A DNA stretch of 64,000 nt from an uncultured Gemmatimonadota bacterium (lineage in GTDB: Bacteria; Gemmatimonadota; Gemmatimonadetes; Gemmatimonadales; Gemmatimonadaceae): NCBI GenBank assembly GCA_902825965.1, contig CADEDA010000001.1, positions 242,428 through 306,427 of the forward strand, given 5' to 3'. The notes below the pieces were generated by a model. It made no database searches. It had not been told where the DNA came from and saw only the letters and a list, made by a program, of their open reading frames with translations. The position numbers and the translations under genes were made by a program. Shown here one piece after another: positions 51,657 to 55,447 of the stretch; the first letter of the stretch is position 1, and each line of letters opens with the position of its first letter.

Positions 51657-53387
51657 TCAGGGCCGGGCGTCCGGGTAGATGAGGTCGTAGAACGCGACCG
51701 TCTCGCCGGGTTCGATGAACGTCGACACCGAGACCCGCGCCCCGTCGGGCGCCGCGACCGTAAGGAAGACCTCCACGCCCGTCGGGATGTCGCAGATCGC
51801 GTAACGCCCCTCGATGGTCGTCCGCGCGCGCGATGTGCGCGCGTCGTCGAGGTTGGAGACCGCACCCCGACGGATGCGCGCCACCACCGAGCCGCCCACC
51901 ACCACGCCGGCCCCGCGTGCCACCGAACCCACCAGCACCGCGTGCCCCGGCTTCTCGCCGCAGGCCTCGCGCGCCAGCTCCTGCAGCGTCTTCACGCGCA
52001 CGAGTTCCTTCGCCGTGCGCGGCGTCTGGGTGAACTGCACGCGCAGGCGCTCCGGCTCCACGTCGAAGACCGCGTAGTACGGTGTGGTCACCTCGACCGC
52101 GTACTCGCCGCCCACCAGGCCGGCGAAGTGCACGCGGCCCCGCTCGTCGGAGACCACCTGTTCGTCCGAACCCGCGAACGTCGCGGCCACGCCCGGCGCC
52201 GGCACGAGCTTCCCGTCCTCGAGCGTGACGACGTCGATGTCGAGCGCCGAGGTCGGCCGCGACCAGAGCACGTCGCTGCTCGAGGCGGAGCGCACCGCGA
52301 GCAGGTCGCCACCGGTCACGCGCATGCGGGAGGTCTGCGGCACCTCGAAGTAGTCCGAGCGCCAGGTGTTCACCGCCGTGCCGGCACGCAGCACCGTGTC
52401 CGCGAGTGCCGAGCGCACGGGGATCGGCGCACGGATCAACCAGCGCGGCAGGATCCACGCCCCGTTGCTGAGCTGCGCGAACTCGATGTCCCCGCCCGCC
52501 ATCATGTCCTTCACCGTCTGCGGCACGTTCACGTACGTGAACTCCACCTTGGCGAGCCGACGCGACTCGGCCTCGAACCACAGCGTGCCCTTGATCTCCG
52601 AGCGGCGCACCGTGGTGAGCGGCGCGAAGTCGAGGGCGATGCGGCTGGGCTGGGCCGCCGTGGGCGCGCGCATGGTGAAGCAGTGCGTGCGGGTGAAGTA
52701 GGGCGAGAGCAGCACCGTGAGGTCGGGCGCCACGTACCGGAGCCCGGAGTCGGTCGGTGTCACGTAGCCGCGCGCCTCAAGTGTCTCCGGGGCGAAGCTC
52801 GTCCAGGGCTGCTCCCCCTCGCTGCGCACACGGCCGAACACCGACTCCAGCAGCAGCGGCGGCGGTCGCGTGTCGATCTTGCGGCTGTGCAGCATCATCT
52901 CGAAGCGATAGCTCAACTCGCGGATCGTGATGTCCGCCGCCAGGATCGCCGTGCGCGCCTCCTCCCAGAGGATCGCCGAGGCAAGGCCCTCCTCGGGATT
53001 GGACTGACAGTCCGCCTGCTCCGACGCCGTGACCGTCGGCAGGCGCACCGGGACCTGGTCCAGGGCCAGCCGCACCGTGGTGTCCCCGCGGATGCTGAGC
53101 AGGCCACTGGTCCAGGGCGTGAAGCCGATGCGTAGCGTCCGCAGGCGGTACCGACCGGCCGCGGGTGCGCGCAGCGTGAAGCGCCCCTGTACGTCCGAGA
53201 GCCCGCGCGCGCGGACCGCTTCCGATTCGTCGAGAAGCAGCACCACGGCACCGAGGATCGGCGCCTGATCGACAGCGCGCAGCACGGTGCCGCGCACCGC
53301 CTGCGCCGCAAGGCCGCTCAACGGGAGCATCACCAGCCAGAGCGCGCCCAACGCGAACAGGAGGCGGCGGACCGAGAGGCGCGGCAC
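51657..53387 (-). CDS. Exported protein with carboxypeptidase regulatory-like domains
   Basis: This 576-residue protein has a signal peptide (LLFALGALWLVMLPLSGLAAQ) and an N-terminal regulatory-like beta-sandwich (VRGTVLRAVDQAPILGAVVLLLD, GRFTLRAPAAGRYRLRTLRIGF). A central region of unknown fold has REL, EIKGTLWFEAESRRLAKVEF and WILPRWLIRAP segments. Two further sandwich-like parts lie near the C-terminus. No barrel is present, so it is probably periplasmic or surface-attached. I chose GTG at 53387 because AGGGGAG lies 8 nt upstream; GTG at 53441 is the alternative. Confidence 0.78.
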   Translation of the reverse strand: MPRLSVRRLLFALGALWLVMLPLSGLAAQAVRGTVLRAVDQAPILGAVVLLLDESEAVRARGLSDVQGRFTLRAPAAGRYRLRTLRIGFTPWTSGLLSIRGDTTVRLALDQVPVRLPTVTASEQADCQSNPEEGLASAILWEEARTAILAADITIRELSYRFEMMLHSRKIDTRPPPLLLESVFGRVRSEGEQPWTSFAPETLEARGYVTPTDSGLRYVAPDLTVLLSPYFTRTHCFTMRAPTAAQPSRIALDFAPLTTVRRSEIKGTLWFEAESRRLAKVEFTYVNVPQTVKDMMAGGDIEFAQLSNGAWILPRWLIRAPIPVRSALADTVLRAGTAVNTWRSDYFEVPQTSRMRVTGGDLLAVRSASSSDVLWSRPTSALDIDVVTLEDGKLVPAPGVAATFAGSDEQVVSDERGRVHFAGLVGGEYAVEVTTPYYAVFDVEPERLRVQFTQTPRTAKELVRVKTLQELAREACGEKPGHAVLVGSVARGAGVVVGGSVVARIRRGAVSNLDDARTSRARTTIEGRYAICDIPTGVEVFLTVAAPDGARVSVSTFIEPGETVAFYDLIYPDARP

Positions 53388-53475
53388 GCCGTGGCTCCCC
53401 TGTGTACGGGAACGGACGGCGAGGGAGTTCACTGGGTGCACGAGTCAGCCGGCAGAGGGGGGGCGGCGCATCCAC

Positions 53476-53506: not shown

Positions 53507-53710
53507 ACCCCACCGCTTCCTGACGCAGCGCAGCGGGCCGAGCCGTGCGGGCGTGGGGACGGTGTCGCGCGAGCCAGGGCCGGCGGCCGCCCGCCTGACC
53601 AACGCGAGGGGGTCAAATACCCTAGCAATTCATTCCGGATTTATCTATTCTCCTTCACTTCTATATGAGATTTATTCTCAACAACCTGTAAACCGTTCCA
53701 CGGCATACTG
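53507..53710. other. Intergenic region with an AT-rich island before the PepSY gene
   Basis: The left part is GC-rich with no gene that I can support. From about 53610 the base composition turns sharply AT-rich, unlike the rest of the window, and holds the Fur-box-like palindrome. A weak TTTATC/TATATG pair (53640-53667) is a possible promoter. Confidence 0.55.
53666..53680 (+). promoter_or_regulatory. Fur-box-like palindrome
   Basis: TGAGATTTATTCTCA matches the 7-1-7 Fur consensus TGATAATnATTATCA at 12 of 14 fixed positions and is itself nearly palindromic. It lies 30 bp before the PepSY gene in an AT-rich stretch. Iron-loaded Fur would repress from here, in line with the usual iron regulation of PepSY-TM genes. 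Confidence 0.6.
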
Positions 53711-54970
53711 ATGAGACTCATGATTGCGCGCCTCCGCAGCCTCTTCTTCTGGGTTCACCTCGCCATCGGCGTCAGCGCCAGCGCACTCATTCTCCTCATG
53801 TGCGTCACCGGTGTTCTCCTGGGCTTCGAGCGCCAGTCCATCGCCGCGATCGACGGCACGGTCACCGTCTCACGCATCTCGGGAGCGACGCGCCTCCCGC
53901 TGGATTCACTCCTCGCGCGGCACGCGCTCGCACGCGACGAGGTCGCGACCGTGGTCCTGCGACGTGAACCGGAGCGACCGGTCACCATCCGATTCCGCGA
54001 CCGCGACCGCGCTGCGATGCAGTTCGATCCGTGGAGCGGTGCCAGCCTCCCGTCGCCGCCCGCCGGCAAGGGGCAAGCGTTCTTCTCGGCCCTGCGACGC
54101 TGGCACCGCTGGGTCGGCGCCACCGGCGAGCGTTGGCGCGCACGGTTCCGCGCCGCGACGGGCGCCGCCAACCTCGCGTTCCTCTTCCTCATCGTCTCGG
54201 GACTCTTCCTCTGGTGGCCACGGCGCTGGACGCGCGCCCGACTCGCCGCCACCGCGCTTCCGCAGCTCTCGGCCAAGGGCAAGGCGCGCGACTTCAACTG
54301 GCACCACAGCTTCGGCCTGCTCGCCGCCCTGCCGCTCGCCCTCGTGGTGGGCTCGGGCGTCTTCATCTCGTACCAATGGCCGGGGCGCCTGCTCGACCGC
54401 TGGCTCGGCTCCGCAGCCGAGCAGGTCGCGGCGCGGCAGCCTGTGGCGGCGCCACGCGGCCGCGTTGCCGCCCCTGCGGCGAACGCATCGTCGCCGGAGG
54501 CCCGCGTGCGTGCCGACGCTGGACGTGCCGACGCGGGACGTGCCGACGCTGGACGCACCGACGCCGGACGCGCCGACGCCGGGATCGCCGCCGCCATCGC
54601 CGACGCCCAACGCCGACACCCCGACTGGACGCAACTCACCGTGACGCTTCCGGCGCCCCGCGACTCCGTGCTGCGCATCGCGGTCGCCGCGGGCAACACG
54701 TACCGCCCGGACCTGCGGCACACGCTGACGTTCGACCGCGGCAGTGCTGCGTTCCTCGGCAGCGCCGGATACGCGGAGCTCTCGGTGAGTCGCCGCATCC
54801 GGGCCTGGGTGCGCTTCGGGCACACCGGCGAGGTGTTCGGCATCGGCGGCCAGCTCATCGCCACGCTGGTGACGGCGATCGGTGCCGTGCTGGTCTGGAC
54901 CGGTCTCGCACTCACGTGGCGACGCTTCCGTCAGTGGCGCTCCCGTACGACCGCCCTATCTTCTCCCTGA
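53711..54970 (+). CDS. PepSY-associated transmembrane protein
   Basis: This 419-residue inner-membrane protein has four or so transmembrane helices: FFWVHLAIGVSASALILLMCVTGVLLGF near the start, FLFLIVSGLFLWWPRRW, SFGLLAALPLALVVGSGVFI, and a C-terminal helix after GHTGEVFGIGGQLIAT. The conserved WVHLAIG, WHHSFG and RFGHTGE histidines and the PepSY regions fit the family, which is often tied to iron-siderophore reduction. A 15-bp repeat codes a RADAG spacer in the periplasmic loop. A Fur-box-like site is upstream. No siderophore receptor is adjacent. Confidence 0.88.
   Translation: MRLMIARLRSLFFWVHLAIGVSASALILLMCVTGVLLGFERQSIAAIDGTVTVSRISGATRLPLDSLLARHALARDEVATVVLRREPERPVTIRFRDRDRAAMQFDPWSGASLPSPPAGKGQAFFSALRRWHRWVGATGERWRARFRAATGAANLAFLFLIVSGLFLWWPRRWTRARLAATALPQLSAKGKARDFNWHHSFGLLAALPLALVVGSGVFISYQWPGRLLDRWLGSAAEQVAARQPVAAPRGRVAAPAANASSPEARVRADAGRADAGRADAGRTDAGRADAGIAAAIADAQRRHPDWTQLTVTLPAPRDSVLRIAVAAGNTYRPDLRHTLTFDRGSAAFLGSAGYAELSVSRRIRAWVRFGHTGEVFGIGGQLIATLVTAIGAVLVWTGLALTWRRFRQWRSRTTALSSP
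54509..54583 (+). repeat. Five 15-bp tandem repeats in the PepSY gene
   Basis: The unit cgtgccgacgctgga repeats five times with third-position changes, coding RADAG-RADAG-RADAG-RTDAG-RADAG in a loop between membrane segments. It is in frame, so copy number can vary without frameshift. Confidence 0.85.
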
Positions 54971-55009: not shown

Positions 55010-55447
55010 ATGCGTCGTTGGTTCATCCGCCCCGTCATGTCCGTCGTCGCCCTCGCGGCCCTGCTCGTCGGGTTCGCCGGCGACGCCGAGGCGCAGGACG
55101 CGAAGAAGAAGCGCGGCGACCGCAATCGACTGCTGCAGGAGGAGATCGTCGAGGCGGGCGCGACCATCGTCACGGCGCGCGACGCGGTACGCCTGCTGCG
55201 CCCGCAGTGGCTCAACCCGCCGATGGGGCGCATGGCGTCCTCGGATCTCGTCGCGCCGGGCGGCGGGGCCCGCAGCATCATCCTCTACGTGGACGATGTA
55301 CGCCAACCCGACCTCGAGGTGCTCACGCAGGTGAAGGCCGCGGACATCATCGAGATGCGCTACCTCGACCAGAATCGTGCGGTGCAGTACCGCGGGCCCG
55401 GCCACGAGGCCGGGGTGATCGAGATCAAGACCAAGCGCGAGCCCTAG
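55010..55447 (+). CDS. Small exported plug-like protein
   Basis: This 145-residue protein has a signal peptide (MSVVALAALLVGFAGDAEAQ) and a domain that resembles part of a TonB-receptor plug: IVTARDAVRLLRPQWL, IILYVDDVRQPDLEVL, IIEMRYLDQNRAVQYRGPGHEAGVIEIKT. No barrel follows, so it is a free-standing periplasmic plug-like module. The function is unknown. It follows the PepSY gene by 39 bp and may be co-transcribed. Its TAG overlaps the next gene's GTG by one base. Confidence 0.72.
   Translation: MRRWFIRPVMSVVALAALLVGFAGDAEAQDAKKKRGDRNRLLQEEIVEAGATIVTARDAVRLLRPQWLNPPMGRMASSDLVAPGGGARSIILYVDDVRQPDLEVLTQVKAADIIEMRYLDQNRAVQYRGPGHEAGVIEIKTKREP

Follow-up and report, generated by a model that had tools for sequence, protein, structure and literature searches.

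The PepSY_TM gene, its promoter and its neighbors

The stretch of DNA analyzed here (64 kb in total, hereafter the window) contains a gene for a PepSY_TM inner-membrane protein, preceded by a divergent gene and followed by a gene for a small protein (Table 1). Its promoter region harbors the near-palindrome TGAGATTTATTCTCA, in which six of the seven arm pairs are complementary, and the ATG at position 53711 starts 30 bp past the end of this 15-mer. Compared to the strict sequence TGATAATNATTATCA, which we take to be the Fur 7-1-7 consensus, the box exhibits three mismatches and hence 11 of 14 matching positions, and a relaxed consensus drawn up for the present analysis (TGA[TG]AATNATT[AC]TCA) is matched at 13/14. 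A sequence-only reading of the locus had described the same palindrome as a 12/14 match; the box is present, with one matching position fewer than claimed. The reading had also placed it in a sharply AT-rich patch 30 bp ahead of the gene, in agreement with a GC content of 0.39 at positions 53610–53709 as opposed to a window mean of 0.71. In fact, GC contents that low occur in two of 6391 sliding windows of 100 bp, both inside this patch, which is the lowest-GC stretch of the window. Alignment of orthologous promoters points, by eye, to a −35 and a −10 element separated by a 17-bp spacer, the latter reading TAnnCT across the alignment and the former lying within a second conserved element. TGAGATTTATTCTCA is a 7-1-7 near-palindrome that lies both near the consensus and near a promoter.

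Table 1. Features of the PepSY_TM locus (positions refer to the window).
Feature	Position	Strand	Basis
Divergent neighbor with carboxypeptidase-regulatory-like domain	51657..53441	−	Pfam
Second conserved element ATACCCTAGCAATTCATTCCGGATT (consensus of 11 promoters AanCCCTAGCGAatnnaTCGGgAtT)	53617..53641	+	Orthologue promoter alignment
Inferred −35, TAGCAA	53623..53628	+	By eye, orthologue alignment
Inferred −10, TATTCT	53646..53651	+	By eye, orthologue alignment
Fur-type box TGAGATTTATTCTCA, near-palindrome	53666..53680	.	Motif searches and orthologue alignment
PepSY_TM inner-membrane protein, FoxB/FsrB/HiuB-like, probable ferri-siderophore reductase	53711..54970	+	Pfam, profile, predicted structure
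Small “plug-like” protein	55010..55447	+	Reading frame (145 aa)

The box is conserved among close relatives of the gene. Near orthologues, defined by about 48% identity or more, comprise 12 distinct loci including the window, where L048 is the same contig as L011 and L050 the same as L007, each pair being counted once, and the family-level loci L012–L014 are left out of the count. Eleven of the 12 keep the box 10–30 bp upstream of the start point used, and the remaining one (L049) reaches 8/14. Inspection of the family-level loci by eye revealed TGATAGCCGTTATCA further upstream of the PepSY gene in L012 and no box upstream of the PepSY genes in L013 and L014. A PepSY match was obtained in only 12 of the 61 relatives searched, and since most of the genus genomes searched are without a match, the gene does not belong to the core of the regulon. 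In L007–L010, a divergent gene which by eye resembles class I (iron-sulfur) fumarase shares the PepSY promoter region.

Wider homologues (Acidobacteria, Gammaproteobacteria, Verrucomicrobia and others) were represented by 80 loci, the upper limit taken, out of 381 relatives found, and 78 of the 80 were used after two with short flanks had been dropped. In 29 of the 78 loci, the 300 bp upstream contain a site matching at least 12/14, as opposed to 8 of 1819 control stretches drawn from these loci, an enrichment to be read from the counts since the relatedness of the loci inflates the Fisher value. The eight nearest loci removed, such sites are found in 22 of 70; 49 of the 78 loci score below 12/14. 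The gammaproteobacterial locus L111 carries the classical box TGATAATGATTATCA upstream. In eight acidobacterial loci (L057, L058, L074, L091, L094, L105, L123 and L124), the center of the PepSY box differs, showing TGAGACTCAGTCTCA and close forms, perhaps a group-specific Fur operator. A search of open-licence papers on acidobacterial Fur motifs returned nothing.

The neighboring genes do not share this conservation. The plug-like protein was so labeled by eye, and no Pfam family matches it at E values up to 1, the TonB plug domain PF07715 included. Iron control had been suggested perhaps to reach this protein as well; here, the sequence-only reading is not supported, given that the gene adjoins the PepSY gene in two of the 12 near-orthologue loci, namely the window and its nearest relative (L011/L048), and was not found at the ten others. 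Furthermore, in a genome without a PepSY match (G005, L243 on contig C38), the divergent neighbor directly adjoins the plug-like gene and the PepSY gene in between is absent, which suggests that the gene was lost there. AATCCCTAGCGGCGTTATCGGCATT, located between these two flanking genes, looks like a remnant of the PepSY promoter. In the window, the plug-like gene may be co-transcribed with the PepSY gene, yet their association is not conserved. The divergent neighbor shows no sign of membership in an iron unit.

Iron genes sharing the box and the candidate regulator

The genome from which the window derives is represented by an assembly of 4.07 Mb in 73 contigs, about 95% complete. The perfect palindrome TGAGAANNNTTCTCA occurs in it once, upstream of feoA, which is followed by feoB (FeoA, 89 aa, PF04023; FeoB likewise identified by Pfam), and the only site with a single mismatch is the PepSY box. 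Nine further sites have two mismatches, and the control gave five sites when up to two were allowed. Eight of the nine were set aside as they lie under a reading frame of at least 100 aa, which is weak ground in GC-rich DNA; among them, L022 and L027 may lie between genes. The remaining site, TGATATTCGTTCTCA at L004:1501-1515 (G000:C15:20876-20890), is located in an AT-rich stretch 22 bp upstream of a gene for a fatty-acid desaturase (PF00487) and partly beneath a 110-aa frame on the opposite strand; the desaturase may represent a third member of the iron regulon. With the strict sequence TGATAATNATTATCA and up to three mismatches, 14 sites were obtained as opposed to one in the control; three of them are those of feoA, PepSY and the desaturase, and the other 11 mostly consist of runs like TGATCATNATGATCA.

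Across the genus, 17 genomes including the present one were scanned, with the pattern read backwards serving as control. The perfect palindrome TGAGAANNNTTCTCA is present at 24 sites in 16 of the 17 genomes and the reversed pattern at none. All 24 sites lie beside an iron gene: feoA (13 sites), genes for HmuY-type lipoproteins (four), TonB receptors (three), PepSY_TM proteins (three) and an FTR1-type permease that carries a cytochrome c domain (one). At sites flanked by divergent genes, the iron gene was the one counted; the opposite frame in L169 does not resemble an iron gene. Pfam confirmed FeoA in all six cases tested, the remaining seven of the 13 being assigned by similarity. At 12 of the 13 sites, feoA is followed by a FeoB-type GTP-binding motif. 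HmuY (in all four genomes), the three TonB receptors and FTR1 were also confirmed by Pfam.

The same site thus precedes further iron genes both in the genome and in the genus, and the lack of similar boxes that could have spoken against iron control was not encountered. The box is a predicted Fur-type iron operator of the PepSY gene, a proposal strongly supported at the sequence level by the feoA box, the 24/24 genus sites and the boxes of the PepSY orthologues. In the genus, three TonB receptor genes carry the perfect motif. In the genome itself, a search with PF00593 gave 19 matches, two of which belong to a single gene judging from position and frame, and none of the resulting 18 TonB receptor genes has a Fur box in the upstream stretch examined (best match 10/14). 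Since no TonB receptor gene adjoins the PepSY gene either, as one would in a hiuABC-type operon (see below), the lack of an own receptor put forward in the earlier reading fits the data.

A palindrome arising by chance in an AT-rich promoter is conceivable insofar as the patch is AT-rich and a match of 11/14 alone is not a high one. However, no other position of the 64 kb window comes within three mismatches of TGAGATTTATTCTCA, which was found once per strand with 0.08 matches expected, and no other site reaches 11/14 or more against the relaxed consensus. Together with the fixed spacing of the box in the 11 near orthologues and the empty reversed control in 17 genomes, this renders a chance origin vanishingly unlikely.

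A single Fur-family gene was found in the genome (C3:44075-44428; PF01475, E 3.5e-30). In the PDB, the encoded protein is closest to Fur proteins (6d57, 4ets), not to PerR or Zur, and among the NCBIfam models Fur ranks first and PerR second, all below cut-off. The genome accordingly encodes a Fur repressor, albeit one that does not reach the NCBIfam subtype cut-offs. This shortfall, which applies to every listed subtype, leaves room for the palindrome being read by another metal regulator, either of the DtxR/MntR type or the lone Fur-family protein acting as PerR or Zur. Such a reading is unlikely in view of the Fur proteins among the best structural relatives, the classical box at the gammaproteobacterial homologue L111 and a half-site of the TGAGAAT type, as used by Fur.

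The sites visible with the TGAGAANNNTTCTCA pattern in this genome thus comprise those of feoAB, the PepSY reductase and perhaps the fatty-acid desaturase. For a poorly studied group, they define an operator and predict a small iron regulon, and a search of open-licence papers found none on Fur boxes of the Gemmatimonas-type group.

The PepSY_TM protein and a predicted route for iron

The PepSY protein consists of 419 amino acids and matches PF03929 nearly over its full length (residues 13–405, E 4.5e-36). Searching solved structures by phmmer with the single protein gave no match at E values up to 1; at the same limit, a profile of nine orthologues retrieved FoxB of Pseudomonas aeruginosa (7abw_A, E 3e-4) as the sole solved structure. 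An AlphaFold2 model built from 79 sequences (78 of the 80 homologue loci and the window) reached a pLDDT of 90.6, replacing a poor single-sequence prediction (pLDDT 51.6). This model resembles FoxB according to Foldseek (E 1.6e-12, moderate TM-score of 0.57) and VIA-align (Z 24.2 across 341 aligned residues, with 7.4 for the next row). Both tools listed no further convincing family, a result that excludes none. FoxB, a periplasmic ferri-siderophore reductase, is hence the only clear solved structural relative found, and the near-full-length PepSY_TM domain is combined with a FoxB fold.

Four histidines (H16, H132, H198 and H371) are invariant in 79/79 sequences. In the profile alignment, the first three are paired with histidines of FoxB, and H371 falls into a weak second stretch, making its alignment to FoxB weak. 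In FoxB, conserved histidines on either side of the membrane hold two hemes, as stated in the part of the source available (PMC13038864). The protein thus shares the four predicted heme-ligand positions and the PepSY_TM architecture with FoxB, and differs from it by an identity of 17%, the missing adjacent receptor gene and a DAG-rich loop insert. This insert, a run of DAGRADAGR-type repeats at about 54505–54590 of the window, lies in a low-confidence loop (residues about 251–290), and by eye such repeats were not seen in the other eight aligned orthologue sequences.

Several known systems are closely related. In Caulobacter crescentus, the Fur-regulated hiuABC genes include a FoxB-like HiuB, which is described as necessary for the use of ferrioxamine and ferrichrome, with FeoAB being proposed as the importer of Fe(II) (excerpt of PMC13001220). 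The present case resembles HiuB in the PepSY protein, the FoxB-like heme sites (predicted here), the Fur box and the proposed uptake via FeoAB; in contrast, hiuB forms an operon with the TonB receptor gene hiuA and the gene for the small membrane protein HiuC according to the same excerpt (PMC13001220), and no receptor gene is adjacent here. The FsrB-FeoAB route of Bradyrhizobium japonicum is reported to use a reductase that frees Fe(II) in the periplasm and FeoAB for its import (PMC10760861, in the portion available). Compared to that route, the reductase gene and feoA have a common operator here. In Bradyrhizobium, the regulators are different. Burkholderia cenocepacia FhuB (BCAL0117) is a PepSY_TM protein required for the use of hydroxamate siderophores, and unlike the window gene, its gene adjoins that of its TonB receptor, fhuA (both according to a section of PMC10866019).

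Since the reductase gene and feoAB represent the two best box sites of the genome and match the parts of FsrB-FeoAB and hiuABC, the PepSY protein is most likely a Fur-repressed ferri-siderophore reductase feeding FeoAB. The palindrome would serve as the operator of the cell's Fur-family repressor, such that in the presence of iron, Fur-Fe(II) would block transcription by occupying the box, which closely follows the inferred −10. Upon iron shortage, Fur would leave and the PepSY_TM protein would be made along with FeoAB, whose promoter carries the same box. As a putative di-heme inner-membrane reductase of the FoxB/FsrB/HiuB kind, it could hold two hemes by the four invariant histidines and pass electrons across the membrane to a ferric siderophore, or another ferric chelate, presumably held by the periplasmic PepSY domains. 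The freed Fe(II) would then enter through FeoAB. Systems of this kind are already known, and the present one is well supported in a poorly studied group. The feoAB and reductase sites suggest a reduce-and-import life on the iron chelates of others.

The fold alone cannot separate iron from copper. A PepSY_TM protein of Bordetella, CrpH, has been tied to heme-copper oxidases, and its model shows similarly placed heme-type histidines (PMC13038864, in the part available), so that the box could be an iron switch for a protein that handles copper. The operator is, however, common to feoA, HmuY, FTR1 and TonB receptor genes. Homologues of the protein also adjoin FeoB, PKHD hydroxylase and TonB receptor genes. 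For this comparison, one long frame per side was taken within 700 bp, on either strand upstream, some of which may be spurious, and the Pfam scan covered all 71 upstream frames and 44 of the 75 downstream frames, the latter hand-picked and mostly on the same strand. TonB receptor families matched 13/71 upstream and 7/44 downstream frames, PKHD hydroxylase 9/71 upstream and FeoB_N 3/44 downstream frames (all family counts). A role in copper handling is therefore very unlikely, and an iron reductase is the preferred reading.

A second conserved element in the promoters

The orthologous promoters share an additional element upstream of the Fur-type box. In 11/11 aligned promoters, the block CCCTAGCGAatnnaTCGGgAtT begins 45–47 bp upstream of the box and is followed by TAnnCT. 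The element has the form CCCTAGCGA-N5-TCGGgATT, from which the window copy departs somewhat, and it occupies the place expected for −35, spacer and −10. It may represent the promoter core or a second operator.

The ungapped form CCCTA-N9-TCGGAATT is also found upstream of HmuY genes. A tighter pattern with at most one mismatch gave 11 matches in the 17 genomes and none in the control, located at PepSY promoters (four), HmuY promoters (three), the PepSY-free locus L243 (one) and in L248, L249 and L250, which were taken as chance. In a looser search with up to three mismatches (13 matches, 8 in the control), only the five matches with zero or one mismatch are informative, all of them at PepSY or HmuY genes. 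The gapped pattern TTGACN{2,8}TCGGRATTG matched nine times as opposed to zero in the control: at four HmuY genes, one TonB receptor gene, one contig end and three GC-rich, probably coding places. By eye, the right half TCGGGATTG was also seen before a TonB receptor gene (L171) and the FTR1 gene (L133), and it was not seen at feoA promoters.

A tentative and rather doubtful extension is that, in some iron-starvation promoters of the genus, the Fur box is accompanied by a second operator, namely the 25-bp CCCTA-N9-TCGGgATT element over the inferred −35 and spacer, which is seen at PepSY and HmuY promoters and not at feoA and would be bound by an unrecognized second regulator. If true, this regulator would reserve genes for chelate and heme acquisition for conditions beyond simple iron lack, and L243, where PepSY is missing, likely keeps a relic of the second element. 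Autoregulation of an Rrf2 gene via the element found no support, with a best match of 12/17 upstream of 28 genus Rrf2 loci (out of 36 matches), scored with no background control and with the stretches of L213 and L233 not lying before the gene start.

Other repeats were observed at these loci. Inverted repeats of the AAGGTGCATnTTACTTGCACCTT type, which we take to resemble the NsrR operator, lie upstream of the Rrf2 gene in L210, L211, L212, L214, L215 and L217, which suggests that this gene encodes an autoregulated nitric-oxide sensor. About 80–140 bp past position 1500, L249 and L248 contain the inverted repeats GTGAAATAATTCAC and GTGAATTTTTTCAC, presumably akin to the Rex operator, and those of L249 precede an apparent nuoA.
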